Virus record (IMG/VR): IMGVR_UViG_3300025168_000272
Location: 1-35,856 of that record
DNA length: 35,856 nucleotides
From: a virus
Direction: 5' to 3' (one strand)
In this document: in pieces, positions 1 to 35,856 of the stretch
Layout of the letters: each line of letters starts with the position of its first letter
Numbering within the stretch: the first letter of the stretch is position 1
Translations under genes and position numbers: made by a program
Notes under the pieces: generated by a model
Seen by the model: only the letters and a program-made list of their open reading frames with translations
Told to the model about the DNA's origin: nothing
Database searches by the model: none

Positions 1-146
1 TAAATTTTTCATTTTTAAGGGGGGGTTTTGTGGGGAGTTTTTAAGCTCCCCTAGTTATTTTTTATTTTCTATTTTCTGTTATTACTTGCTCCAGGATTAT
101 TTTTAAATCCTCTATAGGCGTCCAACTGACGAAATAGTCGTAAGTC
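1..146. repeat. Terminal direct repeat, left copy
   Basis: Bases 1-146 are repeated at 35712-35856. The copies are identical except for a G run, which is 7 long here (19-25) and 6 long at the right end (35730-35735). This shows that the contig closes into a circle of about 35,711 bp. The repeat covers the first codons of the gene starting at 35723, its leader, and the 3' part of the gene at 62-295. It may be an assembly overlap of a circular or circularly permuted molecule, or a true short terminal repeat. Sequence alone does not separate these. Confidence 0.93.
32..51 (-). other. Hairpin between two small genes (possible terminator or leader element)
   Basis: GGGGAG (32-37) and CTCCCC (46-51) form a perfect 6-bp stem with an 8-base loop. 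On the minus strand it lies between the stop of the 77-aa gene (62) and the start of the 87-aa gene (35721-35723 across the junction; duplicate copy 35742-35761). The minus-strand 3' flank is C-rich rather than a T tract, so it is a poor intrinsic terminator in the sense direction. It may be an mRNA-processing or leader hairpin. Confidence 0.5.
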
Positions 147-295
147 ATTATTGACCTAGCTTCTCCAATATACATCTTATATAGGTTGTCTTTTTGTACT
201 TCCTTAGATGCGTTATCTAGCTCTTCAGATAGTTTATTTATTAGATAACTTCTTTCTGTTTGTTGCTCCTGCGTTTCGTTGTTTACGTTTAACAT
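62..295 (-). CDS. Small hypothetical protein, first gene of the junction-crossing operon
   Basis: 77 aa, acidic and mostly helical in appearance, with no recognised domain. It follows directly from the best-spaced promoter in its region (323-354) with a leader of about 20 nt ending in an A-rich AACCTAAAAAAA tract. Downstream, across the circular junction, lie the 87-aa membrane protein and the 338-aa conserved phage protein, so it probably starts an early operon. A truncated duplicate of its 3' end is present at the right end of the window. Function unknown; the position suggests an early, host-interaction type gene, which is inference only. Confidence 0.75.
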   Translation of the reverse strand: MLNVNNETQEQQTERSYLINKLSEELDNASKEVQKDNLYKMYIGEARSIMTYDYFVSWTPIEDLKIILEQVITENRK

Positions 296-322
296 TTTTT
301 TTAGGTTTTAATTAATAATAGG

Positions 323-354
323 CAAATATAACGGCTTTTATTTGGACTATACAA
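323..354 (-). promoter_or_regulatory. Bacteroidota-type promoter for the 77-aa gene
   Basis: On the minus strand, TTG (352-354) is followed after 21 bases by TATATTTG (323-330). This fits the Bacteroidota consensus TTG-N17-23-TAnnTTTG. The start codon at 295 lies just downstream. The repeat arrays at 417-710 lie immediately upstream, where regulators would be expected to bind. Confidence 0.72.
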
Positions 355-416
355 ATAATTTACAAACTATTTACAATTTATTTCTAATTTATAATGATTC
401 TAAATAAGCTTTTTGT

Positions 417-490
417 CTAAAAATAAATTTAGGCAAACCTAAAAATAAATTTTAGGCGCGGCTAAAAATATATTTAGGCCAGGCTAAAAG
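417..490. repeat. Tandem 22-23 bp iteron-like repeats
   Basis: Three and a third head-to-tail units start at 417, 439, 462 and 484, each beginning CTAAAAATA and carrying TTTAGGC. Periods are 22, 23 and 22 bp, about two helical turns, so protein bound to successive units would sit on one DNA face. Each unit is also partly self-complementary (GCCTAAA against TTTTTAGC). The array sits in the gene-free region 296-750. The form fits replication iterons or cooperative operators. Confidence 0.8.
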
Positions 491-508
491 TACTATGCAT
501 GCATAGTA
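491..508. repeat. Perfect 18-bp palindrome
   Basis: TACTATGCATGCATAGTA reads identically on both strands and directly abuts the last iteron-like unit. It is long enough to be unlikely by chance in a region of this size. A dimeric DNA-binding protein site is the simplest explanation; cruciform or dimer-resolution functions are possible. Confidence 0.85.
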
Positions 509-533
509 AAAAAAAATTCAAAAAAATCTCCTA

Positions 534-710
534 ATATAAGCCCCTAACAGTTTCAGGACTATATATAAGCCGAGGACAGTTTCAACAGTAAATCAGCTTC
601 AGGAAATTGTTTGGGAAGAAAAAAATTTTTTTTATTTTTTTATATAAGCGGGAGACAGTTTCAACAGTGTTTTGTTTTTTTATATATAAGGGTAAGACAG
701 TTTCAGGGCT
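534..710. repeat. Four dispersed direct repeats, TATATAAG-N6-9-CAGTTTCA
   Basis: Copies lie at about 534-560, 561-589, 641-668 and 682-710. Each has an AT-rich ATATAAG block, a variable 6-8 bases, then ACAGTTTCA followed by either GGACTAT/GGGCTAT (outer copies) or ACAGT (inner copies). All face the same way. A partial extra copy (CAGCTTCAGG) lies near 593-602. Together with the iterons and palindrome they fill the gene-free interval 296-750, making it the best candidate for an origin or master regulatory region. Confidence 0.8.
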
Positions 711-750
711 ATGATGGCCATATTACAACTAAAATATAATTCATTGTACC

Positions 751-954
751 TTAATCTTTAGTGTAGGTTTTGTGTGTAAGTATCTGATTTATAATTGGTT
801 GACTAACTTCACATACCTCAGCTAATTGGTCTTGTGTGTATTTTCCAGTCTTGTATAATTCTCTTATACCTTCAGCCTGCTCGTATGTAAACTTTCTTTT
901 TGCATATCCTCCACCTCTCCTGTCTTTTCTATCTTCTCTTTTAATCTTCCCCAT
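751..954 (-). CDS. Small helix-turn-helix protein
   Basis: 67 aa from the ATG at 954. A longer reading from 1008 is possible but would overlap the preceding gene by 68 nt and adds only a basic low-complexity stretch. The N-terminus is very basic (KREDRKDRRGGG). It is followed by a resolvase/Hin-type HTH: a helix around FTYEQAEGIRELY, then the recognition-helix candidate EVSQPIINQIL. It overlaps the 3' end of the Zn ribbon gene by 14 bp. It lies beside the repeat region 417-710, so it is a natural candidate to bind those repeats; that pairing is inference. Confidence 0.75.
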   Translation of the reverse strand: MGKIKREDRKDRRGGGYAKRKFTYEQAEGIRELYKTGKYTQDQLAEVCEVSQPIINQILTHKTYTKD

Positions 955-1144
955 TATTCTTTTTTTTCTTATCTTTAATCTTATTTTTCTCAACCTTATA
1001 ACAAACACTACATAATCCTATTATCTCTGTTGTTAATGGGTCGCATTCTTCAGGGTTTTTAGAGTCAAGACGAGCTCCTAAATAACTTTTATTCTCTAAT
1101 AGCTCAAACTCTTTACTACATACATCACAAATAATCTCCATCAT
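941..1144 (-). CDS. Small zinc-ribbon protein
   Basis: 67 aa with two CxxC knuckles (CDVC near residue 6 and CSVC near residue 45), a typical treble-clef or zinc-ribbon spacing, and a lysine-rich C-terminal tail. No further domain. The next gene, an HTH protein, overlaps its end by 14 bp, suggesting translational coupling. Function unknown; possibilities are a nucleic-acid-binding or regulatory factor. Confidence 0.7.
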   Translation of the reverse strand: MMEIICDVCSKEFELLENKSYLGARLDSKNPEECDPLTTEIIGLCSVCYKVEKNKIKDKKKKNNGED

Positions 1145-1188
1145 AACTTTTTGGTATTAAGTTTATGATTTTGAAAACAAAGGTCTAA

Positions 1189-1236
1189 CCCCTGCCCCCT
1201 GTACCCCCTATATCCCCCTCCTCTATAGCTTACCCC
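1189..1236 (-). other. Guanine-run tract with G-quadruplex potential
   Basis: The minus (coding) strand carries runs GGGGG (1232-1236), GGGGG (1214-1218), GGGGG (1204-1208), GGGGG (1195-1199) and GGGG (1189-1192). The last four are separated by 5, 4 and 2 bases. It begins in the last codons of the VRR-NUC gene and extends into its 3' untranslated region. Such a tract is exceptional in this AT-rich genome. Confidence 0.75.
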
Positions 1237-1651
1237 CATCATACTGTTTATGCATATAATTATCAATAGCTTCTTTACATTCATCAAACCCTTTACATAC
1301 CTTAGCTGTATATCCAACTTCGTTTAGGTATTCAATCCATTCGTGTTGATGTTTTGAAGCGTAGGACTTTCTATCTTTCTTTATTTCTAAAAAAAGACCA
1401 CATGATTCTCTGGTAGGGTAGCAGATTTGGAGGTCGGGGAAACCTTTTATATAGCCGCTAGCTTTCGCTTTTACAGCTTGAGTATAAGATGTTCTTATCC
1501 CTCCTAAACTCGCACAGAATTTAGCTAAGGGATATTGTAGTTGTAGGTATTTAACTACTGACTTTTGGAGCTCGTACTCGCTTTGACTTTTTGATAATCC
1601 GTTTTTTGTTGTCTCGTTTAGCTTTTGGCTTATCTTCTTTTTCTTTTTCAT
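1223..1651 (-). CDS. VRR-NUC family nuclease
   Basis: 142 aa. The VRR-NUC (PD-(D/E)XK superfamily) core is visible: GFPDLQI with the catalytic Asp near residue 73, then LFLEIKK with the Glu/Lys pair near residues 89-91, followed by the usual helix with HQHEWIEYLNEVGY. Stand-alone VRR-NUC proteins are common in phages and are thought to be structure-specific DNA nucleases. The N-terminus is lysine-rich. It overlaps the upstream membrane-protein gene by 101 bp. Its 3' end runs into a G-run tract. Confidence 0.88.
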   Translation of the reverse strand: MKKKKKISQKLNETTKNGLSKSQSEYELQKSVVKYLQLQYPLAKFCASLGGIRTSYTQAVKAKASGYIKGFPDLQICYPTRESCGLFLEIKKDRKSYASKHQHEWIEYLNEVGYTAKVCKGFDECKEAIDNYMHKQYDGGKL

Positions 1652-1802
1652 CTTTTAATTGTTGAGCAGACTTAACAAGTTCTAAAAGATTCTTATCTGT
1701 ATTATGCATAATACTTATTTTCTTGTTAATCTGATAATATCTTATATCAACTCCAATGAGCCATAAGATAATTACTGCTAATGTAATGTAAATTGTTGTC
1801 AT
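1551..1802 (-). CDS. Small membrane protein with lysine-rich cytoplasmic tail
   Basis: 83 aa. An N-terminal transmembrane helix (about residues 3-20, TIYITLAVIILWLIGV) is followed by a short helix and a very basic tail (KKRIIKKSKRVR). The last third overlaps the VRR-NUC gene in another frame. It has an ATG and lies 3 bp after the stop of the DUF3310 gene, so it is probably real. No family recognised. Confidence 0.6.
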   Translation of the reverse strand: MTTIYITLAVIILWLIGVDIRYYQINKKISIMHNTDKNLLELVKSAQQLKDEKEKEDKPKAKRDNKKRIIKKSKRVRAPKVSS

Positions 1803-1805
1803 AGT

Positions 1806-2117
1806 TTATTTTTCTTGGTTAATTTTTTCTAATTCAAATTCTAAATGAGCTATAGCTTTCTTGATACAATCTGTTGGAGTATCGTGTTTTTTGTAAGCTC
1901 TTAATATATATGTTGTTGCTGTTGCTAGATGGTATGTTAAATCAAAGTTATCACAAACTTTCCTTGCTTCATAACCTTCTTTACCCTTGTAATATTCAGG
2001 TATTCTATTATCGTTTTGCAGTCCTCCTGATAATGTTTTGCCATCATATTGGCCTGAGGTTAAACTCATATTCCTGTCTAATTCATAGTAATGTTTACTA
2101 TGCTCTTTCTTTTTCAT
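1806..2117 (-). CDS. DUF3310 family protein
   Basis: 103 aa. The second half matches the DUF3310 pattern: P-EYYKG...G-EA, then F-LTYHLATATTYILRA-KK and a final helix IKKAIAHLEFELEK. DUF3310 is a small helical domain widespread in phages, sometimes fused to or next to nucleotide-metabolism enzymes; its role is not established. It overlaps the preceding 60-aa gene by 20 bp. Confidence 0.8.
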   Translation of the reverse strand: MKKKEHSKHYYELDRNMSLTSGQYDGKTLSGGLQNDNRIPEYYKGKEGYEARKVCDNFDLTYHLATATTYILRAYKKHDTPTDCIKKAIAHLEFELEKINQEK

Positions 2118-2280
2118 CTAAATAAGTAATTAGTTGTTTTGGAGTATATATAGATAACTGGTTTGTATAGTTTTTGTATATCATGGTAAACTCTGGCTCT
2201 ACTTCGTTAAATGTCCATAAAGACCTAACTCCACTTTCAATCTGTTGTCTTAATAATCTTTTTATATTATTATATTTCAT
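2098..2280 (-). CDS. Small hypothetical protein
   Basis: 60 aa with an ATG at 2280, 16 bp after the stop of the DNA methylase gene, and overlapping the DUF3310 gene by 20 bp. No domain recognised. A TATATTTG element (2285-2292) precedes it, but no TTG lies at the right distance, so separate transcription is doubtful. Confidence 0.6.
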   Translation of the reverse strand: MKYNNIKRLLRQQIESGVRSLWTFNEVEPEFTMIYKNYTNQLSIYTPKQLITYLDEKERA

Positions 2281-2296: not shown

Positions 2297-3115
2297 TTAA
2301 TAATTCATAATAAGTAATTCTGTTCCCTTATTTTGTTTCTTACCTTTCTGAGCTCCAGCAGCTTTATTAAATTCTTTACTTTCCCATCTGTATTTATCTT
2401 TAGGTAGCCATTCTGATAGTAAGGGGAAATCATAGTAAGACAATGCAAATTTACCTCTAATTCTTTTTAGATGTGTTACTAATGTGTCGTGGTCATCTAC
2501 ATCAAAATCATGATTAGAATAATAATCTTCAGTTTTCCAATAAGGAGGGTCAACATAAAAGAATGTTTTGGGGCCATCATATTTTAATATTAAATCTGTA
2601 TAATCTAAATTCTCTACATCTGTAATCTTTTCTAATCTATCTATTATGTCGGAGTTCTGCAACTTGTTTATTAGGCTGTCGTATTTACTACCATACTTAC
2701 CTTTTAAGTCAATAAAACTACTTTCTAATATCTTACTACCACTAAAGACTTGAGTTGCGCAGTAAGCGTATTTCATAGCTATCGGATAAGTACCTAATGG
2801 AAAATTAATATTCTCATCAACCAATGTGTTTAAGTAATCTTGAAACTTATAAAACCTTTCTTCGTCTTGAGACTCAAACATTTTTAAAGATTTGGCTATA
2901 ATGTGTGGGTTTTGAAAACACGCAAACATATTTGCCATAAACTTATTCTTGTCATTATATACAATTTTTTTAAGTTCAGGCTTAGAGTGTATGTCTCCTT
3001 TAACATAAACCCAGAAAGCTCCTCCAAAAACTTCTACATAAGCTTCTATATCGTTAGGTATGTATTCACATATCCATTTACTCATTCTTGATTTACCTCC
3101 TATATAACTAATCAT
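2297..3115 (-). CDS. D12-class DNA adenine N6-methyltransferase (Dam-like)
   Basis: 272 aa. Motif I for S-adenosylmethionine binding is near the N-terminus (YIGGKSRM). EVFGGAF follows (motif II-like), and the catalytic motif IV DPPY is near residue 189. Together with the length this is characteristic of the D12/Dam family, whose best-known members methylate adenine in GATC. Specificity cannot be read from sequence, and I found no GATC anywhere in the window (see findings). It overlaps the 3' end of a 50-aa membrane-protein gene. Likely role: protecting phage DNA from host restriction, or marking it. Confidence 0.93.
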   Translation of the reverse strand: MISYIGGKSRMSKWICEYIPNDIEAYVEVFGGAFWVYVKGDIHSKPELKKIVYNDKNKFMANMFACFQNPHIIAKSLKMFESQDEERFYKFQDYLNTLVDENINFPLGTYPIAMKYAYCATQVFSGSKILESSFIDLKGKYGSKYDSLINKLQNSDIIDRLEKITDVENLDYTDLILKYDGPKTFFYVDPPYWKTEDYYSNHDFDVDDHDTLVTHLKRIRGKFALSYYDFPLLSEWLPKDKYRWESKEFNKAAGAQKGKKQNKGTELLIMNY

Positions 3116-3260
3116 TTTTCTTTTTATTTAATTTATCTATGTTTTTAATAATTTTATTTCGGTTAACGGAACTGCTTATTGAGCGCTCTATTTGTGTTAC
3201 TACATACATTCCTACTATAACTCCAACAACAAATGTTATTAATGATAATGTTATTTCCAT
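3108..3260 (-). CDS. Small single-pass membrane protein
   Basis: 50 aa from the ATG at 3260. A hydrophobic segment (residues about 5-21, SLITFVVGVIVGMYVV) is followed by a basic tail ending KLNKKKND. The stop overlaps the methylase start (AATGATTAG arrangement), which supports coupled translation. No family recognised; small membrane proteins of this sort are common in phage early operons. Confidence 0.6.
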   Translation of the reverse strand: MEITLSLITFVVGVIVGMYVVTQIERSISSSVNRNKIIKNIDKLNKKKND

Positions 3261-3264
3261 AATA

Positions 3265-3456
3265 TTATTTAGTTAATTTATCGTATTCATTTATTACCTC
3301 TCCCCATATCTCATGACCTTCGTAAACTCTAGAAACTCTTATATAAAATATAGTTAGATACCTTTTGTATATAGCAGCTTTATCATCTCCACTACTTAGT
3401 ATAGTGTATCTCTTATGGTCTGGTATTACCTTAAGCGTTATTTTTATTGGGGTCAT
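3265..3456 (-). CDS. Small hypothetical protein
   Basis: 63 aa, with a predicted mainly beta pattern at the start (PIKITLKVIPDHKRYTIL). The start codon shares a base with the HNH gene stop at 3456. No known domain. It is part of the tightly packed early operon. Confidence 0.6.
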   Translation of the reverse strand: MTPIKITLKVIPDHKRYTILSSGDDKAAIYKRYLTIFYIRVSRVYEGHEIWGEVINEYDKLTK

Positions 3457-3671
3457 TATTTTAATTTTTTATTAATATTATATATTTGTATTAAATTTTC
3501 TATTTCATCTTTTGCCATATATCCACATTGATGTATAACTGTATGAATTACTTTTGGAATAGCTATTAAATTATCTAAACTATTGTTATTATGATTAAAA
3601 TCAATATGATGAACATCCCAATCTTTAGGTATTTTCTCAATATGTTTCTCATATAATGCCCTATAACTCAT
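3456..3671 (-). CDS. Small HNH endonuclease
   Basis: 71 aa. The HNH core is clear: DVHHIDFNHNNNSLDNL with His 21-22 and the Asn-rich middle, followed by VIHTVIH where the last metal-binding His is expected. It has only the catalytic beta-beta-alpha-metal region and no DNA-binding extension. Such mini-HNH genes are either free-standing homing-type endonucleases or packaging/recombination helpers. It overlaps the upstream gene by 4 bp (ATGA). Confidence 0.88.
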   Translation of the reverse strand: MSYRALYEKHIEKIPKDWDVHHIDFNHNNNSLDNLIAIPKVIHTVIHQCGYMAKDEIENLIQIYNINKKLK

Positions 3672-4045
3672 TTTAATTTTTTAATTTCTTTATTCATAAT
3701 CTTAAGTCCCGTTCCCTTCCTACTTCTATATACTAATCTTTTATCTCTACGCTCAGGTTCTTTACTAGACTCATTCCATATTAATTGTCTATGTTCTTTT
3801 ATCCATTTATAATAATTCTGAACATTCAACACAAAACTATCTGTCCCTCTTACCCCCTGTCTAAAAGATTGAACTATATCCTCAAAATATAAATTCTTAA
3901 AATCTTCCTTAACATCATAAGCTAAAGACTTAGCTAGTATAACAATATGTTTCTCATCTTTTAACTGCCCTAACTCAACTAATGTTTTACTTATTAAATC
4001 AACACACATTAGCTCTAACTCTTTTATATCTATGTCTTTTATCAT
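3668..4045 (-). CDS. Conserved phage protein of unknown function
   Basis: 125 aa, helical, ending in a basic region (GTGLKIMNKEIKKLK). The central part (LAKSLAYDV, DFKNLYFEDI, FRQGVRG, YYKWI) resembles a protein often found next to replication genes in Bacteroidota phages, but I cannot name a function. It overlaps the genes on either side by 4 bp (ATGA). Confidence 0.7.
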   Translation of the reverse strand: MIKDIDIKELELMCVDLISKTLVELGQLKDEKHIVILAKSLAYDVKEDFKNLYFEDIVQSFRQGVRGTDSFVLNVQNYYKWIKEHRQLIWNESSKEPERRDKRLVYRSRKGTGLKIMNKEIKKLK

Positions 4046-4302
4046 TTTATTTGGTCTTTTCTTATTATTAATTTATCAGTAAATTTTTTATCCTCATCTT
4101 CTAATACTAACATATTTTTATCTCCAACACTCATAATGATATTATCTCCAACCACCAATCTAATCTCATATCTTTCAAAATATCTGCCGTTTTCTGGATA
4201 AACTCTATATTTATCTCCATCTAAAGACATAACATAAGCGTCTAAAGATTTATCTGTAAGCTGATTTAATTCCATTTGAGTCATTCTACTTCTATGTTTC
4301 AT
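4042..4302 (-). CDS. Hypothetical protein
   Basis: 86 aa; the N-terminus is basic and the rest is predicted beta-rich (DKYRVYP, RYEIRLVVGDNIIMSV). The start shares a base with the stop of the loader-like gene. No domain recognised. Confidence 0.65.
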   Translation of the reverse strand: MKHRSRMTQMELNQLTDKSLDAYVMSLDGDKYRVYPENGRYFERYEIRLVVGDNIIMSVGDKNMLVLEDEDKKFTDKLIIRKDQIK

Positions 4303-4963: not shown

Positions 4964-6022
4964 TTAGTAGTGAGTATTAATAACATTATTTACTTTGTCT
5001 AAGGTTGGGGTTTCGTCAACATCATATATTGATTCATCATAATAAACCTCAGCTTTACATCCCTTGCAGTATCTATAATTTTTTACCTTTGATATAGACT
5101 CTACAACTTTATCTCCACAATAGTAACACAACTCCTCTCCATCTTCATATACTACCTCGTTACCATACTCATCTTCCCATTTGTCAGTTTCGTAGTAATG
5201 TCCTCCATAACCACCTCCCCAATAATTTTTACCTCCATTTGAAAAATCGTATGTTGTTTTATTAAACTCAGTATTAATATATTTTTCACATCCTAAATGA
5301 ACTATAAGATTATATATTAAGTTAAGACAATTTTCTGCATCATAGAAATCTACAGTTTCACTATCTGTATGGGGATTGTAATATCCACTACTCATGTTAG
5401 CTACACAAACATCTAAACCATTATCAACTAACTGCTCTACATCTGTCATAGCTCCGTTTGTTTCTTTGTATTCATGGTATTGTAAAACAGGAGCAATCTT
5501 TTCTGAAAAATCTTTACCAAACAAATCCTTACCACCTATGTTGTTTACAAAATCATTATGACCTCTCCTGTCTGATTGAAACACATATCCAACATCTTTG
5601 AACCATTCCATATCAGCCTGACTACTACCTACACATCCAACTTCTTCTGAATGAAAGAATGCACATTTAACTATCTCTAGGTCTAATAACATCTCTAAGC
5701 ATATCCATACTCCTACATTATCATCTCCACCTACTCCTACTTGTTTTTGTTTGTCGTTACTAAATGCAAATAATACACCATCATTATCAAACACCTTAAA
5801 GTCTTTATGTATATCATGCACTGTATCTGTGTGAGAAACCACACAAGGATAGTTTTCTGAAATTCCCTTAGTAACATAAACATTATTGTTTTTTATTACT
5901 ACTGATGCTTCAGGAACATTTTTTGTTACAAAATCTTTTATGTACTCTATCATCATTTCCTCTCTACCTGATGACGATTGAACTGATAATACATCAATCA
6001 GTCTTTGTTTAGTTTCATTCAT
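4964..6022 (-). CDS. M20/M42-type zinc metallopeptidase with C-terminal zinc ribbon
   Basis: 352 aa. The catalytic set of a co-catalytic zinc aminopeptidase of the M20/M28/M42 clan is present in order: SHTD (His64, Asp66), GGDDN (Asp100/101), HSEEVG (Glu126, Glu127), SDRRG (Asp151) and NPHTDSE (His218). A glycine/tyrosine-rich linker (about 263-275) then leads to a four-cysteine ribbon, CYYC (299-302) and CKGC (319-322). It looks intact. It is first in its operon, with its own strong promoter (6080-6110) and a structured leader. Substrate unknown: peptide salvage, a host-protein target or a repurposed hydrolase are all possible. Confidence 0.85.
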   Translation of the reverse strand: MNETKQRLIDVLSVQSSSGREEMMIEYIKDFVTKNVPEASVVIKNNNVYVTKGISENYPCVVSHTDTVHDIHKDFKVFDNDGVLFAFSNDKQKQVGVGGDDNVGVWICLEMLLDLEIVKCAFFHSEEVGCVGSSQADMEWFKDVGYVFQSDRRGHNDFVNNIGGKDLFGKDFSEKIAPVLQYHEYKETNGAMTDVEQLVDNGLDVCVANMSSGYYNPHTDSETVDFYDAENCLNLIYNLIVHLGCEKYINTEFNKTTYDFSNGGKNYWGGGYGGHYYETDKWEDEYGNEVVYEDGEELCYYCGDKVVESISKVKNYRYCKGCKAEVYYDESIYDVDETPTLDKVNNVINTHY

Positions 6023-6128: not shown

Positions 6129-6485
6129 CTAAATATCTATTAATAATTGTAACAATGGTAGCAATATACCCTTAGAAGTGTTGTTATCTCCACCCTTAAG
6201 GTCTAAATTTGTGTTAAGAAACTTTCTACATTTTTCTTTAAGCTTCTCTGTTTTGATAAGGATAAAAGAATCCTTAGACACAACAAAACAATAGTAATCA
6301 GCTTCGGTCTTAGAAATTCCAGATGGATTACCACGGCTTTCATATTCAACAAACACACTGCCAGTCTCAGCAGCTTTAAGGTCTGTCTTAACTTCTATTG
6401 ATTTGTCGTTAAGTATGTCTCCGAGTTCTTTCTCTTTGATTTGTCCTAATTTTAAATCGTATCTAAAATCGTTTGAGTATTCCAT
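6129..6485 (-). CDS. PD-(D/E)XK endonuclease / resolvase-like
   Basis: 118 aa. The pattern GQIKEKELGDIL, then SIEVKTD (Glu31, Lys33 of the E-x-K catalytic pair), then SVFVEYESRGNPSGISKTEADYY, is that of small phage PD-(D/E)XK nucleases related to Holliday-junction resolvases. Likely role: processing recombination or replication intermediates. It ends upstream of the 6080 promoter, so it is the last gene of the operon that starts at 8713. The gap before it (6486-6587) holds only a possible 23-codon reading frame and a repeated GAGATTGAGATTCTC tract. Confidence 0.8.
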   Translation of the reverse strand: MEYSNDFRYDLKLGQIKEKELGDILNDKSIEVKTDLKAAETGSVFVEYESRGNPSGISKTEADYYCFVVSKDSFILIKTEKLKEKCRKFLNTNLDLKGGDNNTSKGILLPLLQLLIDI

Positions 6486-7247: not shown

Positions 7248-7559
7248 TTACCTTCTGTTAGTTGGTAAAGCTTTTACCATATCATAGTCCTCCTCTCCTT
7301 CAACTACTATAGAGTGTCTGTTTGGTATATCAACTTCTATTATATCTATTACATCTCTAACATCTATATTTAGAAAGGTAGCTAATCTAGCCATGTGAAA
7401 GTATCTTAAATAAAAAGGGTTATCAATATATTTTTCTATTGTACTTCCTTTTACATTTATTATCTTGCCAAATCTTACTTTGGATATACCTCTAATACGA
7501 AGTATTGCTTCAAGTTCATTCTTAGAACTTCTTATCTTATCATAATTATTCTTTGCCAT
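7248..7559 (-). CDS. XRE-like helix-turn-helix protein
   Basis: 103 aa. Residues about 13-60 form a Cro/CI-like HTH: ELEAILRIRGISKVRFGKIINVKGSTIEKYI, followed by HMARLATFLNIDVRDVIDII. The C-terminal 35 residues are acidic. It lies 2 bp from the DnaA-like gene. It could regulate the twin early promoters or the repeat region, but no target can be assigned from sequence. Confidence 0.78.
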   Translation of the reverse strand: MAKNNYDKIRSSKNELEAILRIRGISKVRFGKIINVKGSTIEKYIDNPFYLRYFHMARLATFLNIDVRDVIDIIEVDIPNRHSIVVEGEEDYDMVKALPTNRR

Positions 7560-13758: not shown

Positions 13759-15093
13759 TTAATTTTGTTCTATAGTTGTTTCTTTTCTTTCAACTTCTCC
13801 ATCTCCATCATCATCTTTTTCTACCACTATAACCTCTCTATCAGCAACAAACATATCTCCATCTTCTAACATATCAAAATCTTCATCTAATAAAGCTCTC
13901 TGTTCGTTTATAGTTAAGACTTGTTTAATATCTACATCGTTAGCGTAAGAAACTGGCGGCTCGTAATGTATCTTTAAGTTCTTAGGGTCAAATCCCATTT
14001 CATGATATAGTAGTTTGTGAATACCTGTTAGTAATAAATCTGTAGTTTCTTTAATAACAGTAGTCATAACTAAGTCATAAGATATTCTAATTTCACTTCC
14101 TGTATTATTCATCTTACCAGAACTAACAATACCACTTAAAGATGGTTGCCATCTATGAGCGGTAATTATATTTTGGTCTGTAATTTGTTGAAGCTCCATC
14201 CAACTACCATCTCTATCATCTTTTAATATCTGAACATTAGCATTTGCTGTATCTCCATTCTTAACGATAAACATAATTTTACCATTATTACCCTGTCCAC
14301 AAAATTTCTTTTGAGCTTCTGTAACTAATTTTTTAGCTTCTTCTTCTCCCATATCTCCATTTATCTCAACGATAGCTGAAGGTTGGAATCCATTTTGGAA
14401 CTGTGTGTTATTCCATAATCCTATTTCATAATCTACCGATATATGTTCTAGTCCAGCAACATAATCAGGTAGTCCATAAAAACTAAAAGTAGGTTCATAA
14501 TCCTTAAACTGCATTATAAATCTACTTGATGTTACTCTTGGATAAAGAGCTATTTTTTGTATTTTTTCATCTTGACTTCTATAATTCTTCCAATCAGGAT
14601 GTACATAGACATCTTTTTTGTTTTTAGACATTCTAACTGTAGTAGCGTCTACATGATAAAGATTTACGCCTCCATCATATAAAACACCCTCTACATAAGC
14701 ATTACCAAATGTATAGTAGTCATCAGCTAATTTTTTGAATACATCTCTCAATGATTCTCCATCAGCATTTACATCTTTAATAAAATCTCTTGTAGCGTCA
14801 TCTTTACAAACGAATTTAGCTCCAGCTGTAAACACAACTTTCTGAGCTAACACAGACCTGTGAGTAGATGATTTTCTTTTAAGTTCTGCTAGGTATTGAG
14901 GAAATAAATTATCTTTTCCAAAAGGAATAAATTTAGTATTTATCCTGTTTAAATCTAGAGGCTCCACCACATTAGGAGGAGTTACTAAATCAAATACACC
15001 AAACTCAAAAGTATTACTCTTTGTCTTTTTTGTCTTTACCTGACTCTTTTTCGGACTCGTTTGTTTCTTTGACTTTGCTGACTTTTTTAGCAT
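13759..15093 (-). CDS. Portal protein
   Basis: 444 aa from the ATG at 15093; the longer reading from 15135 would need TTG. After a lysine-rich N-terminus the portal pattern begins: FIPFGKDNLFPQYLAEL, SSTHRSVLAQKVVFTAG, DDYYTFGNAYVEGV, YGLPDYVAGLEHI, then HRWQPSLSGI and the long C-terminal helix region. This is typical of HK97-fold portals of Bacteroidota phages. It forms the DNA gate at the capsid vertex. The first 80 nt overlap the lysine-rich 3' end of the preceding gene. Confidence 0.9.
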   Translation of the reverse strand: MLKKSAKSKKQTSPKKSQVKTKKTKSNTFEFGVFDLVTPPNVVEPLDLNRINTKFIPFGKDNLFPQYLAELKRKSSTHRSVLAQKVVFTAGAKFVCKDDATRDFIKDVNADGESLRDVFKKLADDYYTFGNAYVEGVLYDGGVNLYHVDATTVRMSKNKKDVYVHPDWKNYRSQDEKIQKIALYPRVTSSRFIMQFKDYEPTFSFYGLPDYVAGLEHISVDYEIGLWNNTQFQNGFQPSAIVEINGDMGEEEAKKLVTEAQKKFCGQGNNGKIMFIVKNGDTANANVQILKDDRDGSWMELQQITDQNIITAHRWQPSLSGIVSSGKMNNTGSEIRISYDLVMTTVIKETTDLLLTGIHKLLYHEMGFDPKNLKIHYEPPVSYANDVDIKQVLTINEQRALLDEDFDMLEDGDMFVADREVIVVEKDDDGDGEVERKETTIEQN

Positions 15094-16020: not shown

Positions 16021-17121
16021 TTAAGAAGTAAGACAAGCTCCATATATTAATGAACTCCAACCATACTGGAAGCCCATAGTGAAGTAAGAGCGAATATACA
16101 TCTTATCAGTAACTTCATCATAGAACATTTTTAATTCATTTTCAGGAGCATTAACATCTGTTCCAATAAATAAATTGTCTATTGACGCATATATAACTCC
16201 GTTTTTAGCGTCAAATCCTGCTCCTGCAGAGTCAAGTACACCAAAAATATCAGGCTTGTCTGCTCCTGTTCTTGCAGTTAAAGCCTCATCCCAAGTATAT
16301 AAAGGTACACACTCAATTCCTCTAAAGTATAATCTACCTTTTCCTGTTTGTGCTTCTGAGTGTCCATAATCAACTGAACCAGCTGTCGCAACCGCTGTTA
16401 AAGAAGCATACCAAGCATTGTAAATATTTGGAGTCATAAACATTCTCTTTCTACCCGCTTCTAATTGTTGTAGCTCAGAAGGAGCTCCTTCAAACGCTTG
16501 TCCTAATACTGTAGCTGCGTCTGCACTAGGTATTCTTGCTGATACCACATTGTAGTCTGCTGCTACTCCACCACCTTTTATTGCTTGTAAAGAACCTGCG
16601 TGAGCGAAATTAGCATCTGCTCCTAATTTATCCCAAAGTCCTTCTCCCATTGATTCGTAAGTACAGTCTGCTACTGCAGTAGCTGTCATTCCTGCCCAAA
16701 TATTTCTACTCATATCATTCATGATACCATTTCTTACTCTGTTGATGATAACATCAGCTAATTGAGTTCCTGATAAGTCAGGCATACTGATACCATTCTT
16801 GTAAGACTCTACAATAATTTGGTCTTTAAACTCATCCCAACATTGTTCTTGTTTTACAGAAACATTTTCTACTGTAATTGTTTTCTTTGTAACTGAAAAT
16901 CCTGCAGGGTCGCAACCTGCGTTTGGCCCACAACCTTCGTTTACTGCTGTAATACCTCTTAACGCAGGAGCCATTGTTATATTTTGTTTATATTTCACAG
17001 ATGGGTATATAGTGTAATTACCACTAATACTGTCAGAGTGAAACATAGGTTCTAAAAGAATTTTTGAAGCGTAAGTACCTTGATACCCTGCTCCCATTCC
17101 GTCTAATGCTACATTTGCCAT
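16021..17121 (-). CDS. Major capsid protein
   Basis: 366 aa, directly downstream of the prohead protease gene. Ala/Gly-rich with the look of the HK97-fold capsid proteins of flavobacterial phages: SGNYTIYPSVKYKQNITMAPALRGI, VSVKQEQCWDEFKDQIIVESYKNG, and a C-terminal KMFYDEVTDKMYIRSYFTMGFQYG. Several cysteines occur. Its codon use is noticeably less AT-rich than that of the early genes, as expected for a highly expressed gene. Confidence 0.85.
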   Translation of the reverse strand: MANVALDGMGAGYQGTYASKILLEPMFHSDSISGNYTIYPSVKYKQNITMAPALRGITAVNEGCGPNAGCDPAGFSVTKKTITVENVSVKQEQCWDEFKDQIIVESYKNGISMPDLSGTQLADVIINRVRNGIMNDMSRNIWAGMTATAVADCTYESMGEGLWDKLGADANFAHAGSLQAIKGGGVAADYNVVSARIPSADAATVLGQAFEGAPSELQQLEAGRKRMFMTPNIYNAWYASLTAVATAGSVDYGHSEAQTGKGRLYFRGIECVPLYTWDEALTARTGADKPDIFGVLDSAGAGFDAKNGVIYASIDNLFIGTDVNAPENELKMFYDEVTDKMYIRSYFTMGFQYGWSSLIYGACLTS

Positions 17122-18197: not shown

Positions 18198-18518
18198 TTA
18201 ACGAACATTTCGTTTTAACACTGACTTATTTCTCTCCTTATAAACTATGTTCTGAGCTGTTCTCTCAGTTATATCATATTTTATTGATAAGTCTATAAAA
18301 CTATGAGTTCTGTTACCTTCATTAGTAACAAGTAAACTGTCAAAATCTTTAATTACCATATAATTCCTTAGCCTCTTTGGCTCTATCATTCCTCTCTCAA
18401 TTAAATGAGATAGCATATCTTTTATTTGAGGCTCTTCCCCAAACCTTGTTTGTAACTCATGATATAATAAATCAATATACTCTGTTATTATATCTACCTT
18501 ATTTTCTCTTTGAGCCAT
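18198..18518 (-). CDS. Helix-turn-helix protein inside the virion module
   Basis: 106 aa. The C-terminal third is a clear HTH resembling Mor-type activators: THSFIDLSIKYDITERTAQNIVYKERN. The N-terminal half is helical (IITEYIDLLYHEL). It sits between the tape measure and protease genes, unusual for a regulator. It may be a late-gene regulator or an assembly factor that uses the fold. Confidence 0.72.
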   Translation of the reverse strand: MAQRENKVDIITEYIDLLYHELQTRFGEEPQIKDMLSHLIERGMIEPKRLRNYMVIKDFDSLLVTNEGNRTHSFIDLSIKYDITERTAQNIVYKERNKSVLKRNVR

Positions 18519-18519
18519 A

Positions 18520-18810
18520 TTATTCTTCCCAATAATTATATACCTGAGTCCAAAATTTAACCACAGCTTTCCTACAACCTATACAACCAATAGATTGTTT
18601 AATTGTTGGAAAATGCCTATGCCATTCAGAGAATAAAAATGGTAAACTTGTAGGATGATACACTTCTTTAGAGTCCATATGTTCTTTGTTTCTAATAATA
18701 TTCTCCATTATTTCCTTTCTTTTATCTCCCTTAATTTTTTCAGCTACTAATTCTACACTCATATTGTCAACAGTTTCAACTGTATTTAAGTTATTAATTA
18801 CTCTTTCCAT
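18520..18810 (-). CDS. Conserved small phage protein with CxxC
   Basis: 96 aa. The N-terminal half is charged helix; the C-terminal half contains PTSLPFLFSEWHRHFPTIKQSIGCIGCRKAVVKFW, a pattern I have seen in unnamed Bacteroidota phage proteins. Its CxxC together with nearby His could bind a metal. The start overlaps the zinc-ribbon gene by 13 bp. Function unknown. Confidence 0.68.
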   Translation of the reverse strand: MERVINNLNTVETVDNMSVELVAEKIKGDKRKEIMENIIRNKEHMDSKEVYHPTSLPFLFSEWHRHFPTIKQSIGCIGCRKAVVKFWTQVYNYWEE

Positions 18811-18998
18811 TTACCTAAAGGACATTCTCCGTAAAACTCTTTAGTAAGAGTTGTTTTTGCATCTAAGAAACAACTACATTTACCACATCTTGCTCCCCAT
18901 TCCCATTTAGGTTTTTTTAACATTAAAAAATTTCTGTAAAAACTACAGCTTTTACAGGTATCTAATCTTTCTTGTTTAACTTTTTTATTAACAAACAT
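18798..18998 (-). CDS. Small cysteine-rich zinc-ribbon protein
   Basis: 66 aa with CKSC (about 15-18), CGKCSC (about 38-43) and a final CPLGKW (from 59). The spacing fits one or two zinc sites. It starts 3 bp after the tape measure stop. Unnamed CxxC...CxKCxCF proteins are common next to tape-measure genes in Bacteroidota phages. Function unknown. Confidence 0.7.
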   Translation of the reverse strand: MFVNKKVKQERLDTCKSCSFYRNFLMLKKPKWEWGARCGKCSCFLDAKTTLTKEFYGECPLGKWKE

Positions 18999-22851: not shown

Positions 22852-23382
22852 TTAACCTGCTACTACATCAATTATATTACCTTCTTCATTTAAGAATCTA
22901 AAAAGGTCATCTACTTCATCACTAAAAGCTGAATCTAAACCATTATATAGACCCTCATATTCTGCCAACGCATCTGCTTTACCTGAAAAATCACTCCTTC
23001 CTGCAGATTCAGCCATTCCACGCTCAGTTGGCCAACCCTCATCAGTTAATTCTTTGGCTATTCTACTAGCTGCTGCTCGCAAATAAGCGTCATCGCTAGT
23101 ATCAAATGTCCCTTTTTCCCTCATCCACCAATAAATAACCCCTTTTTTAACATTAGCAGGGTATCTTTGGTTACCATAATTATCAATCATTTGCCAATAA
23201 GACCTACTATTACCTATTGTTAAATTAATTACATCTGAATCTTCCTTAATACTCCAATAAAATCCTCTTACAAGAGACCCTTTAGCACTATGACCCTGCT
23301 CTTCAATTATCCTAATCATATACTGCGTAAGCTTATCCCCTATATACGCTAACTCTCTTTTTATTTCTTTGTTTTCTGCCAT
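22852..23382 (-). CDS. Tail completion / neck protein candidate
   Basis: 176 aa. The body (IKRELAYIGDKLTQYMIRIIEEQ, MIDNYGNQRYP, KKGVIYWWMREKG, YLRAAASRIAKELTDEGWP) has the size and helix-strand pattern of HK97 gp10-like tail completion proteins, which often contain a late 'W' helix before RIA/I-KE. The acidic C-terminus ends VDDLFRFLNEEG. Start overlaps the preceding gene stop by one base. Assignment is moderate. Confidence 0.55.
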   Translation of the reverse strand: MAENKEIKRELAYIGDKLTQYMIRIIEEQGHSAKGSLVRGFYWSIKEDSDVINLTIGNSRSYWQMIDNYGNQRYPANVKKGVIYWWMREKGTFDTSDDAYLRAAASRIAKELTDEGWPTERGMAESAGRSDFSGKADALAEYEGLYNGLDSAFSDEVDDLFRFLNEEGNIIDVVAG

Positions 23383-23825
23383 TAGTACATTATTTCTTCA
23401 TCAATCATAGGATTTCTAAATTGAGCAGGCCTATTATTATCTTCTTGTGTTACACTTCTTATAACTTCTTGAAGATTATTAGAGCTATCAGTGTACATAA
23501 TAGGTAAAAATATATCTTCTTTAACATCTGCAACCCCAACATTCGCAACAGTCCAGTCAACATTGTCGCCAACAGTTACATTAGTTAATAACTCGTCTAC
23601 AGCCTCACAACATTCCCCTGTGCTTGATGTAGTAAGTGTTGTAGAAGTCATCCTTTCTCCCATTGTAACGGTAGTAGTTGTAGAAGTCATAAAACTATGA
23701 GTCATATATATCTTACCTCCTTTTTGCTCTACAATACCCTGTGTATTTATATTTATTATATTTTTATTATCCTTAACATTTAAGTTAGGGTCAACAAAAT
23801 TTAGAGAAGCTTTGCTATTGCTCAT
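23382..23825 (-). CDS. Hypothetical virion-module protein
   Basis: 147 aa, with a Thr-rich central stretch (MTSTTTTVTMGERMTSTTLTTSS) followed by CCEAVDELL and a beta-like C-terminal half. No domain recognised. It lies between two tail genes; it may be a small baseplate or neck component. Confidence 0.6.
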   Translation of the reverse strand: MSNSKASLNFVDPNLNVKDNKNIININTQGIVEQKGGKIYMTHSFMTSTTTTVTMGERMTSTTLTTSSTGECCEAVDELLTNVTVGDNVDWTVANVGVADVKEDIFLPIMYTDSSNNLQEVIRSVTQEDNNRPAQFRNPMIDEEIMY

Positions 23826-31684: not shown

Positions 31685-33136
31685 CTACGAAAAATATACA
31701 ATTTTACCAGAATTTGACCAAATTTCTCTGTTTACAGCCATTACAAGACAATCTACCATATCATCATGCTTGCCTGATGGAAATTTAACACATTGTTGTA
31801 TAAATGATTCGTTCCAATCCCCTTTTAACAAAGTTACTCGCTCAGATTCTAAACTTGCGCTTATATCTTGTACTCTAGCTACCTTATCTTTAGTTGGAGG
31901 TTTATCTTCTCTAATATTTAACCCTGTTTCTCTTTTTAATGTTTGAACTATTGACTTACCCGAAGCTTTTGGCTCTACATATATCCTGCTGCTATTTGTA
32001 TATCCATTCATCTGTACCCACTCAGGAATAAATCTAATTAAATCAGGGAATGTTTTATGAACATTTATACAATTAATAATCTGCCATTTATTATCTAAAT
32101 AAATATAAGCTAATAATGCTGATGGGTCGTTCTTTTGATTTTCAGTATATGCTGGGTCTATTATAAAATTCACATTTACTCCATTATTTTTTTTAGAATA
32201 CTCATCTATCTTAAACCAATTACCCTTAATCAATCCTGAATTTAGAGGAGTTGGAGTTTGCATTAGCTGACCAGAATACCCATAAGTACCTAAAGCTTCT
32301 TTATAATCTTGTAATATATCTCTACTAAACCTGTCTGTCCAAAATAAATCATCTTCATCATAATATTGAGTTAAAGAAGATGGTTTTACATCATCTGACA
32401 ATTCTGCGGGTATGCAAATGTGTTTATACTTCAATCTTGTGTTTATACCATTAACTAAATAACCGCTTAAGTCATTTTCATGGATTCTTTGCATTATTAT
32501 TATTCTGACCCCCGTTAGTGGATTATTTAACCTAGAGTAAAATGTTGTTCGGTACCACTCGTTCGCATTTTCCCTTTCTACTTCAGAAGCAGCGTTTTTC
32601 GGAGAAACGGGGTCATCTATAATTAGGAAATCTGCTCCCTGACCTGTAATGGTACCTCCAACAGATGTAGCTCTTCTCATTCCCATATAGTTATTCTCGT
32701 ATCTAGCTTTTAAGTTCTGGTCTTTCTTTATATGGAATATTTCTCCCCATCTTTCTTTATACCAATCACTTTGAATAACATCTCTTGATTTAGTTGCGTG
32801 TTCTATAGATAGGTCTGCAGAATAAGAAGCTGTAATAAATCTAAGCTTAGGGTCTCTAATCCAACACCAAACAGGAAACAGTACCGTAGTAATTAAAGAT
32901 TTAGTTGAACGGAAAGGTACATTGATAATAATATCTTTCTTTTTTGGTTTTCCTTCAATAATTCTTTCTGCTTCCTCTTGTAATAAATTGCATAGATATT
33001 TATGATGCCAATTTGTTGATAGTGGTACAGATGGTTCTACAATATGCCAAGACATCTTAAAAAACTCATAAAATGACATCTCACATAACTTTTGCTCAAT
33101 AGCAAGTTTTATAGGGTCGTTATTCGCTGTACTCAT
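31685..33136 (-). CDS. terL: Terminase large subunit
   Basis: 483 aa, full length. The ATPase has a variant Walker A, VPFRSTKS (73-80), Walker B FLIIDDP (170-176) and motif III-like IIIMQRIHENDLSG. The nuclease half shows IIDPAY (Asp327), YVEPKASGKS (Glu388) and HDDMVDCLVMA (Asp458/459 and Asp462), the three RNase H-fold metal ligands. It packages DNA through the portal. The start overlaps the small-subunit gene by 17 bp. Confidence 0.94.
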   Translation of the reverse strand: MSTANNDPIKLAIEQKLCEMSFYEFFKMSWHIVEPSVPLSTNWHHKYLCNLLQEEAERIIEGKPKKKDIIINVPFRSTKSLITTVLFPVWCWIRDPKLRFITASYSADLSIEHATKSRDVIQSDWYKERWGEIFHIKKDQNLKARYENNYMGMRRATSVGGTITGQGADFLIIDDPVSPKNAASEVERENANEWYRTTFYSRLNNPLTGVRIIIMQRIHENDLSGYLVNGINTRLKYKHICIPAELSDDVKPSSLTQYYDEDDLFWTDRFSRDILQDYKEALGTYGYSGQLMQTPTPLNSGLIKGNWFKIDEYSKKNNGVNVNFIIDPAYTENQKNDPSALLAYIYLDNKWQIINCINVHKTFPDLIRFIPEWVQMNGYTNSSRIYVEPKASGKSIVQTLKRETGLNIREDKPPTKDKVARVQDISASLESERVTLLKGDWNESFIQQCVKFPSGKHDDMVDCLVMAVNREIWSNSGKIVYFS

Positions 33137-33794: not shown

Positions 33795-33816
33795 TTACAT
33801 TTGTATTACATTTGTA
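33795..33816. repeat. Tandem 11-bp palindromic element
   Basis: TTACATTTGTA occurs twice without a gap. Each unit contains TACA-TT-TGTA, with inverted arms, so two dyad sites lie exactly 11 bp (one helical turn) apart. On the plus strand each unit also contains TACATTTG, a -7 match, but no plus-strand gene follows. A regulator site is the likelier reading. Confidence 0.65.
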
Positions 33817-34129
33817 TTTCCTAGAAAACATCCTAACAATCTTTCTTAACTTACTAATTATCTGTTTAATATGGATATAAAATTGAAGTTCAAAATTTAT
33901 TCTGTATGTGTACACCCTTAAGAAAGGCGGCTTCAAAAATTGACGGAATTGCCAAAATATCCCGAATTTAAGTAAAAATATCCAACTTTTTTAACAATTT
34001 GAGAGAAAATTAAAGAAAATACAAACTTTTTTAGTTTTTTTGTCGTTTTTTTTGGAATATCCAAAGAAAAAGCGCTAGTATTTCAATAGTTTTTTTATAA
34101 ATTCTTTAACTTTCTTTCTAAATTATTTG

Positions 34130-34210
34130 TTAACTACAAAAGGCGAGAAATAAAAAAGTTATTATAACGATTGCTTTAATTGTTGCGCTCTCTGTTTGGA
34201 AGTTTGCCAT
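34130..34210 (-). CDS. Very small membrane peptide
   Basis: 26 aa from the ATG at 34210: a polar start (MANFQTESATIK) and a hydrophobic segment AIVIITFLFLAFCS. It follows the preceding gene by 22 bp in the same orientation. It is short enough that chance cannot be excluded; the composition and spacing make it plausible as a membrane peptide. Confidence 0.4.
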   Translation of the reverse strand: MANFQTESATIKAIVIITFLFLAFCS

Positions 34211-34232
34211 GTGTTTAAATTTTAGTTATTAA

Positions 34233-34403
34233 TTAATTATTTTTTCTTTTATATGTAATTATCCAATCATTGCCGAAGGCTATTCTGTATTCGTTTACTA
34301 ATTTGATAGCTTCTTTTTTGCTGTCGGCCGTGTCTATATTTTCGTTACTGTATTTTGACATACCTATTATATTGTAAATTGTTTTTTGTGTTTTTGTTTT
34401 CAT
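34233..34403 (-). CDS. Small conserved-looking protein
   Basis: 56 aa from the ATG at 34403, 13 bp after the preceding stop. NIDTADSKKEAIKLVNEYRIAFGNDWIITYKRKN is an alpha-beta pattern that I recognise from short proteins of Bacteroidota phages and plasmids, with no known role. It belongs to the junction-crossing early operon. Confidence 0.65.
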   Translation of the reverse strand: MKTKTQKTIYNIIGMSKYSNENIDTADSKKEAIKLVNEYRIAFGNDWIITYKRKNN

Positions 34404-34416
34404 TTTGTTTTTGTTT

Positions 34417-35433
34417 TTAGTTATTAATATTTAGATTATTTAATTGTTTTAAGGTACCTTCGAATCCGGGTATATCTTCTATTTCCTCTATTACAGGAGA
34501 TAATAAAAGTATAACTTTTTTTAAATCTTTTGCCAGTCTTTGAATCTCTGCAAATTTAATCTTATGGCAACCAATATATAAAGTTTTATTTTGTGCTTTT
34601 GTTATCGTGTAATATCCTATCTTTTGGCCTTTTAGATTTGCATTTATCTTCTCATCATTCCACTTCCAGAACTCTAGCGCTTTTATTGCCTTTTGTCCTT
34701 CTTCTAATGATATTTTAACATTCTGTGAAGTATGTATAAAATATCTTTCTTCATTATCTAGGTTTTGTTTATCATATTGCAAACTTAATAAATCATAATC
34801 AAGGCGTACAAAGTCGCTCTTCCCTAATCTATACATCCGTATTAATTGCTTTTGCCTTCTCTCTCTTTTGTTCTTTTGCTTTTGTTCTTCTTCTTTTGCT
34901 TCTTTCTCTAATATTGTTATATTGTCCATACTTTTAGCAATGTACAGGAACCTTTTCCAGTCTTTGGAACGTTTATCTATTTGGGCTTTTATAAAGTCGC
35001 TGTTACTCCATCTCACAAACTCTATTTTGTTGCTTTTGGCGTATCTTTGGAAATCTTGAAAATGGTTAAATATTCCTTTTATTGTCGCTATATATTCTAA
35101 TTTTCTACTTTTTGCCCTTGGTAGCTTTGACACTAATTTTTCTGTTCTTCTGAGGGCATTTTTTATAAATATATCCTCGCTATAAAACTGTTTTTTGTGT
35201 CTTGAGGCGTGCTGTATTTCGCCTATATGTTTGCTAGTTGTAACGCTATAACCTCCGTTATTTATTAGAATCGCTCCTCCGTCAAGATGTAGGGCTAGTT
35301 TATAATGGTAGCCGTAAGAATAAAGAGAAGAGCGCTCAAAAAATGCGTTCCTTGTTTGGTTTTTTGCGTGCGTTTGTGATTTGTTTGCGAATAGATGAAT
35401 AACTTCGCTAGAGCTTTGGAAGACTGTTTTCAT
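34417..35433 (-). CDS. Conserved phage protein of uncharacterised family (DUF8033-like)
   Basis: 338 aa. The N-terminal 80 residues carry a strongly patterned signature seen across many phages and metagenomic contigs: SSEVIHLFANKSQ, NAFFERSSLYSYGYHYKLA, GAILINNGGYSVTTSKHIGEIQHASRH. A helical, basic middle (KEEEQKQKNKRERRQKQ, about 185-200) follows, then IGYYTITKAQNKTLYIGCHKI near residue 275. My recollection is that this is DUF8033; the family function is unknown. The leader AACCCTTAAAAACTAAAAAA matches those of other early genes. It is the largest gene of its operon and the best early-effector candidate there. Confidence 0.75.
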   Translation of the reverse strand: MKTVFQSSSEVIHLFANKSQTHAKNQTRNAFFERSSLYSYGYHYKLALHLDGGAILINNGGYSVTTSKHIGEIQHASRHKKQFYSEDIFIKNALRRTEKLVSKLPRAKSRKLEYIATIKGIFNHFQDFQRYAKSNKIEFVRWSNSDFIKAQIDKRSKDWKRFLYIAKSMDNITILEKEAKEEEQKQKNKRERRQKQLIRMYRLGKSDFVRLDYDLLSLQYDKQNLDNEERYFIHTSQNVKISLEEGQKAIKALEFWKWNDEKINANLKGQKIGYYTITKAQNKTLYIGCHKIKFAEIQRLAKDLKKVILLLSPVIEEIEDIPGFEGTLKQLNNLNINN

Positions 35434-35459
35434 TTTTTTTAGTTTTTAAGGGTTTTATT

Positions 35460-35723
35460 TTAATATGTTATATAAGAATAGATAAGTACGCAAAAGCCGA
35501 TTAAAACGGTTGCAACTGCTATTGTTTCCGATATGTTTGCTATCCTTTGCGCTTTTCTTTGTCCTGGTGTTTCAAATTTGTACTTATGTAATTTTCCTCC
35601 GTTTCTTCGCATAAATTCCTGAACTTGATTTGATGGCAAAAATAAAACGGCGTTTGTCGCTCGGTTTGTTAGTTTGTAATCTTGTAAACTTTTTAGAATT
35701 GTTTTGTTTAGTAAATTTTTCAT
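35460..35723 (-). CDS. Small protein with C-terminal membrane anchor
   Basis: 87 aa. The first 60 residues are basic (KNLLNKTILKSLQDYKL, RRNGGKLHKYKFETPGQRKAQRIAN), followed by ETIAVATVLIGFCVLIYSYITY, a C-terminal transmembrane helix. It would face the cytoplasm as a tail-anchored protein. Its first codons and leader lie inside the terminal repeat, where the C run (minus strand) is 6 or 7 bases in the two copies. Function unknown. Confidence 0.7.
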   Translation of the reverse strand: MKNLLNKTILKSLQDYKLTNRATNAVLFLPSNQVQEFMRRNGGKLHKYKFETPGQRKAQRIANISETIAVATVLIGFCVLIYSYITY

Positions 35724-35856
35724 TTTTAAGGGGGGTTTTGTGGGGAGTTTTTAAGCTCCCCTAGTTATTTTTTATTTTCTATTTTCTGTTATTACTTGCT
35801 CCAGGATTATTTTTAAATCCTCTATAGGCGTCCAACTGACGAAATAGTCGTAAGTC
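35712..35856. repeat. Terminal direct repeat, right copy
   Basis: Matches 1-146 with one G fewer in the homopolymer (6 versus 7). See the left copy. It holds the hairpin 35742-35761 and a truncated duplicate of the 77-aa gene's 3' end. Confidence 0.93.

Follow-up and report, generated by a model that had tools for sequence, protein, structure and literature searches.

The 35,856-nucleotide stretch of viral DNA analysed here (IMG/VR record IMGVR_UViG_3300025168_000272, in the following the window) does not contain a single GATC, and this loss has been found to extend across much of the phage group to which it is related through the large terminase subunit (TerL). We consider it likely that selection by host restriction at GATC has removed the site from this group, and the phage belongs to a marine group, probably with Flavobacteriales hosts. 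The complete absence had been reported in an earlier note on the same DNA and has been confirmed by a string count of the plus strand (0 sites), which covers both strands since GATC is a palindrome. The note's prediction of about 100 sites from base composition has been reproduced as well (99.5), with a lower expectation of 78.4 from an order-2 Markov model based on trinucleotides; the Poisson probability of finding none in the window is 9 × 10−35. In 150 synonymous shuffles of the 51 mechanically called minus-strand genes, which left the bases outside the shuffled codons unchanged, 69.8 ± 6.1 sites have been obtained and never fewer than 54, and the site is therefore under-represented against composition and codon expectation alike, as is typical of restriction-site avoidance. 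Aspartate preceding a codon that starts with C has been found to be written GAC in 42 of 42 cases, as the note had claimed from examples, while GAT is used at 532 of the 660 other positions (Fisher 2 × 10−28). Likewise, isoleucine is never encoded by ATC after a G-ending codon (0/110, versus 41/713 elsewhere), and among the codon pairs of the window genes none joins AGA, GGA or CGA to a codon starting with TC, GATC being avoided in all three codon frames. As the window ends repeat each other in the pattern of a closed genome, with which the exact terminal repeat is consistent, the absence is probably genome-wide. It is real, strong and selective.

Within the window, no other palindrome is depleted nearly as strongly as GATC, though several are low. 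Relative to the order-2 Markov expectation, low counts have also been observed for TCGA (1 observed/21.6 expected), ACGT (6/34), CCGG (1/11) and CGCG (2/11), and a milder shortage for CATG (47/87) and CTAG (72/115), while AGCT, TGCA, GGCC, ATAT and TATA stand approximately at or above expectation. The codon null gives a similar picture for ACGT (6 vs 47.5), TCGA (1 vs 29.2) and CATG (47 vs 71.9) and an excess of AGCT (253 vs 195 ± 10). CpG is scarce (rho 0.45), and the low counts of the other palindromes are partly due to this general shortage. An equal depletion of many palindromes, which the earlier note had named as an argument against specific avoidance, has thus been encountered only in so far as several others are low; GATC is far more extreme than these, and five are not low.

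The group was sampled through the best 80 of 188 stretches matching TerL (72–100% identical), which together with the window make up 81 loci of 3–21 kb, the smallest of which carry little weight. GATC is entirely missing from 56 of the 81 and lies at or below 0.1 of expectation in 61, which supplies the counts in related phages that the note had proposed as a check. A larger set consists of the window and 38 records of 21–39 kb, each used as whole sequence except for one cut point, with one record (G086) having joined through its methylase and not its terminase; among these 39, 24 have no GATC, 30 are at or below 0.1 of expectation, and nine range from 0.13 to 0.67. On a TerL tree made by a quick method, explaining the GATC state takes 13 changes, of which well-supported branches make 9 unavoidable. 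Other palindromes at or below 0.1 of expectation are CATG in 26/81, AGCT in 5/81 and ACGT in 15/76 TerL loci, and in some sister phages it is CATG or AGCT, rather than GATC, that is missing. Such separate losses of CATG and AGCT are as expected from varied host enzymes. One record (G041) is devoid of GATC, CATG and AGCT together (0/69, 0/86 and 0/111, observed/expected), and AGCT has been seen to be wholly missing in L042/G041, L063 and L078–L080 (0 vs 32–111 expected). In five named phages, GATC observed/expected counts are 10/48 (P2559S), 5/108 (PJN03), 56/117 (P2559Y), 96/115 (Peternella) and 190/161 (phi17:1); P2559S is without CATG, CCGG and CGCG, and PJN03 has CATG at 1/99.

The GATC content differs even between close relatives at 89% DNA identity. 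Over 12,529 aligned bases (88.8% identity), the 23-site locus L066 has been compared with the GATC-free L065/L067, and none of its 20 aligned sites is kept in the partner, whereas all tetramers are shared at 67% and GATT, GATG and GATA at 64–78%; at a sharing of 0.71, the chance that all 20 are altered is ∼2 × 10−11. Four further pairs of 82–91% identity have kept 0/7, 0/9, 0/14 and 0/4 sites. The partners were chosen for having no GATC, so that the zero itself is given and the informative part is that normally shared sites have changed; the pair alignments do not tell the direction of change. The "long exposure" to GATC restriction postulated in the earlier note is consequently too simple, given how much the content varies among phages 89% identical to each other.

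The window also encodes a D12-class N6-adenine DNA methylase, to which the earlier note had referred as a Dam-family enzyme "next to" the missing site, a wording that holds only in the sense of the same genome. The family assignment stands by fold: the enzyme has the DPPY motif, and its predicted structure is the D12 fold of Dam, DpnM and T4Dam [AlphaFold2 mean confidence (pLDDT) 82.7; Foldseek E 1 × 10−10 to 1 × 10−7 for most]. It does not stand by the NCBI curated Dam model (TIGR00571), which the methylase reaches with 49.8 of the 114.85 bits required, nor by the (F/Y)NVP stretch, a mark of GATC specificity. At the place of FNVPYG in DpnM, the window methylase has FIDLKGKYGSKYD, and none of 32 methylase family members carries (F/Y)NVP at the expected place, the single G.FN match, at another position in L098, being due to chance; a looser version of the stretch is present in 9 of the 12 Flavobacteriales Dam loci that pass the cut-off and have an open reading frame (ORF). 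Its target is probably a motif other than GATC. A search of the PDB with the single sequence returned chance-like matches only, and with the methylase profile DpnM and 7m6b have been found. The best match among public phages has 50% identity and lies in uncultured phages of 630–735 kb, and the nearest cellular relatives are copies of a chromosomal gene in Flavobacteriales metagenome-assembled genomes (MAGs), which further sets the enzyme apart from Dam and DpnM.

A link between this methylase and the loss of GATC is not supported, since GATC is lost in relatives without the gene and near-normal in some carriers. In two records (G003, G005) the genes that flank the methylase gene in the window are separated by 373 and 455 bases in which no methylase match occurs, and GATC is 0 in both. 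A D12 methylase is present in only 4 of the 80 TerL-relative records, many of which are fragments, and in one of the four the contig end truncates it. Of the near-complete records (24–39 kb), all 6 with D12 have zero GATC, and so have 18 of the 33 without it, 24 of these 33 being at or below 0.1 of expectation (Fisher 0.30 vs carriers). A methylase relative at 64% identity (L189) accompanies 39 GATC where 36 are expected; members of the same family occur with 0.87–0.88 of expectation in L107–L109, of which L107 lies in a 187-kb virus record, and with 0.40–0.69 in other large-virus contigs. L189 is filed under a Nanoarchaeota MAG and shows phage-like DNA polymerase, helicase and methylase genes; it is probably a misbinned phage contig. 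The methylase as the cause of GATC loss has been disfavoured by the GATC-free relatives lacking it and by its presence or absence at one locus, and it is probably a separate matter, namely an accessory gene. Among the options given in the earlier note, another specificity or a recent, accessory addition fit best, as the gene comes and goes at one spot while GATC stays at 0.

Other phage genes have been considered as well. The 39 larger records were split by hand into 29 GATC-poor and 10 GATC-bearing ones, with G047 (5/65) placed among the latter, where the 0.1 limit would give 30 and 9. Among the best 40 gene families, none is present in 29/29 GATC-poor and 0/10 GATC-bearing records, and a phage gene family tracking the GATC state has been rejected on these grounds. 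A family of ∼200 amino acids, which we take to resemble the phage GP88 family, occurs in 5/10 GATC-bearing and 0/29 GATC-poor records, with the best p of 0.00044 being uncorrected for many families or relatedness. Further methylase profiles (PF01555, PF05869) have no match in 38 records, and a methylase motif scan of the phages has returned one NPPY (194-residue ORF, G035) and one PCQTF (168-residue ORF, G026). The window encodes VRR-NUC and HNH proteins. At 6129–6485 (minus strand), a 118-residue phrog_13596 protein of unknown function resembles, on visual inspection, a small PD-(D/E)xK nuclease; it is present in 7/39 records, all close window relatives.

Regarding the host, a scan of genome contigs with the methylase alignment has yielded 11 loci, of which Flavobacteriales MAGs account for eight, and in the GTDB family of one such MAG 9 of 52 genomes match, eight strongly and one weakly. 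In four loci (L190, L191, L194, L196) the D12 gene lies around 5001–5820 at one chromosomal place, between a large secreted-protein gene and a pseudouridine-synthase gene (named by eye), and the same by-eye reading has found no recognisable nuclease gene beside it. This conserved gene is possibly a core orphan methylase, judging from its context. In the methylase tree, 15 phage sequences and L189 form a well-supported group beside seven Flavobacteriales rows (L190–L196), which suggests that the phage hosts may lie in or near that clade.

Candidate GATC cutters have been surveyed in 296 genomes drawn evenly from Flavobacteriales, in which the DpnII family passes its cut-off once, DpnI five times and MutH/Sau3AI eight times. 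Five of the eight MutH/Sau3AI proteins were scanned against the Sau3AI equivalog NF040973, and four pass, one of them narrowly (306.6 vs 300); the fifth, from G105, a genome of the family to which the methylase clade belongs, remains below it with the 298-residue part scanned (127.9). A C5 methylase adjoins or lies one gene from the nuclease in 7 of 8 cases (4 by profile, 3 by motif only), and the pairing of an equivalog nuclease with a C5 methylase that characterises Sau3AI-type systems is hence present in cellular Flavobacteriales genomes. In G173 (L249, 967–4026), C5 methylase, Sau3AI-type and DpnI-type genes stand in a row and would together cut GATC whether or not its adenine is methylated. 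According to PMC5608340, Sau3AI cuts GATC regardless of adenine methylation (unaffected by Gm6ATC), DpnI requires it, and cytosine methylation blocks the two enzymes alike.

On the restriction reading, each GATC would be a target for a host endonuclease on phage entry, so that lineages meeting GATC-cutting hosts would lose every site by synonymous or near-neutral changes and lineages not meeting them would carry sites. GATC-directed restriction, already named by the earlier note as the selecting force, is favoured by the avoidance at codon level, the group-wide loss, the differences between near relatives and the loss of other palindromes in sister lineages, while no host enzyme has been proven. 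The likeliest cutter would be a Sau3AI-type system made up of a C5 methylase and a Sau3AI-family nuclease, with a DpnI-type nuclease alongside in one genome; this proposal, taken by itself, is put forward tentatively. As Sau3AI ignores adenine methylation, an adenine methylase would be no shelter from it, and site loss would be the way out left open, as far as the enzyme families tell. Several observations weigh against host restriction. For so general a loss, known GATC cutters are few in Flavobacteriales: the DpnII family is missing from all nine genomes with methylase relatives in a direct search, and none of G090–G097, which carry the methylase relative, is among the DpnI or MutH/Sau3AI matches listed. 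Genomes with a methylase relative have GATC at 0.61–0.96 of expectation (G094 0.96 over 100 kb, G096 0.62 over 54 kb, G095 0.61 over 32 kb). A profile search for TerL in 395 Flavobacteriales genomes has given only two distant, prophage-like matches at E ≤ 1 × 10−60, one in G145 (50% identity, with further weakly similar structural genes) and one in G384 (38%). Finally, among 22 contigs retrieved through close relatives of the methylase, GATC is absent from 21 and occurs once in the remaining one, three of the 22 being also TerL relatives and the set overlapping with the near-complete carriers; an association of GATC loss with the methylase may thus exist. In G145 and G384, GATC is equally low near the terminase and elsewhere in the genome (G145: 14/46 and 14/34 vs 16/30 and 17/43; G384: 11/60 and 12/59 vs 9/56).

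Among the alternatives, another GATC-directed defence, be it a DpnI-type nuclease alone, a phosphorothioate-based system at GATC or an uncharacterised nuclease family, appears rather unlikely: the DpnI family is found in the five genomes mentioned, G384 has a short DpnI-like ORF elsewhere in its genome from three 20-kb stretches (L267, L268, L271) with GATC at 0.16–0.20 and ACGT at ∼0.03–0.07 of expectation, and GATC phosphorothioation is discussed for haloarchaea (PMC7230728), but DpnI needs adenine-methylated GATC, so that a phage from an unmethylating host would be spared. The avoidance of Dam/MutH-type mismatch repair or of Dam regulation has been proposed for enterobacterial phages and phiX174, the latter having zero GATC like the window and a lower mutation rate once sites are restored, although it is a single-stranded DNA phage of E. 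coli for which mismatch repair in a Dam+ host is the explanation offered (PMC5014478); an orphan GATC methylase is also common in Flavobacterium psychrophilum (PMC11837570). For the present group we regard this as highly improbable, because all five scanned MutH-family proteins fall far below the MutH equivalog cut-offs, four of them passing that of Sau3AI, and because it would leave unexplained why sister phages have lost CATG or AGCT. It is just as hard to credit that the phage itself makes GATC harmful, by its own methylase or by a nuclease of its own directed against GATC in the DNA of the host. The uniform lack of GATC in near-complete methylase carriers and the VRR-NUC and HNH proteins would fit, yet most near-complete records without D12 are poor in GATC too, L189 and L107–L109 combine the methylase family with 0.87–1.10 of the expected sites, and no gene family among the best 40 separates the two classes. 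An explanation by nothing but composition, mutation bias or codon usage, for which the skewed base composition and low CpG of the window could be cited, deserves next to no credence, given the minimum of the codon shuffles and the presence of GATC in near relatives of similar GC content. A more elaborate scenario, which we likewise rate as improbable when taken as a whole, would keep host restriction and add a role for the methylase: the enzyme would be a phage version of a CcrM/Dam-like orphan adenine methylase that is core to an uncultured marine Flavobacteriales clade, acquired by the phage to place the host's own epigenetic mark on the DNA of the host or of the phage; Sau3AI/DpnI-type arrays of the hosts would meanwhile cut GATC methylated or not, so that only the absence of the site would save the phage.

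The coordinates of the features are compiled in the table below. The first 25,000 of the window's 35,856 bases have no megablast match to known phages, the major-capsid candidate at 16021–17121 has no tblastn match, and a TerL pattern scan of genome contigs has found no relative. A weak repressor-like match (phrog_18342) has been seen at 7248–7559.

Coordinates of the features discussed, in the window unless another record is named
Feature	Position	Strand	Remark
Stretch without any GATC	1..35856	.	0 vs 78.4 (Markov) and 69.8 ± 6.1 (codon shuffle)
Exact terminal repeat, 127 identical bases	20..146	+	other copy 35730-35856 (window's last 127 bases)
Left neighbour of methylase gene	2101..2280	-	kept in relatives without methylase
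D12-class N6-adenine DNA methylase, DPPY motif; accessory gene, target probably other than GATC	2297..3115	-	PF02086 E 5.6e-20
50-residue ORF between methylase and right neighbour	3108-3260		
Right neighbour of methylase gene	3268..3456	-	kept in relatives without methylase
Terminase large subunit (TerL)	31685..33136	-	phrog_38 E 1.2e-101; query for relatives and tree
∼200-residue family, other records	G051 18237-18836; G060 22960-23559; G074 14383-15024; G075 3459-4100; G080 31908-32339		

A complete lack of GATC in a virus is not new, and the HF1-group haloviruses are a close precedent. Like the window, their isolates are described as lacking GATC (and also CTAG), most of them have an N6 methylase, and the authors conclude that it must target another motif (PMC7230728); they are haloarchaeal viruses of ∼76–78 kb, whereas the present group consists of marine phages of ∼36 kb with a variable GATC state and the methylase in few. 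Site avoidance is reported as widespread in non-temperate phages, and for hosts with a gene for a GATC enzyme, GATC was low in 46/46 of their phages (PMC6286503). The viruses of that survey resemble the window in that a palindromic Type II site is strongly depleted, most extremely in non-temperate phages; they differ in having known hosts with known enzymes. Sau3AI-type restriction-modification, the proposed selecting agent, has been seen in Flavobacteriales genomes, which may not be the host of the present phage. The combination opposite to the window is known from a Polaribacter prophage, which is reported to have 180 GATC sites alongside a GATC-type methylase (PMC12570018). Among the open-access papers listed in literature searches, none on the present phage group has been found.

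The group offers a natural experiment in how uncultured marine phages avoid restriction. As related genomes differ in the palindromes they are missing, the missing words may record which restriction systems their as yet uncultivated hosts possess. A phage methylase and the lack of a methylase-like motif in one and the same genome need not be connected, and the orphan methylase common to the phages and to Flavobacteriales chromosomes provides a lead to the host clade.

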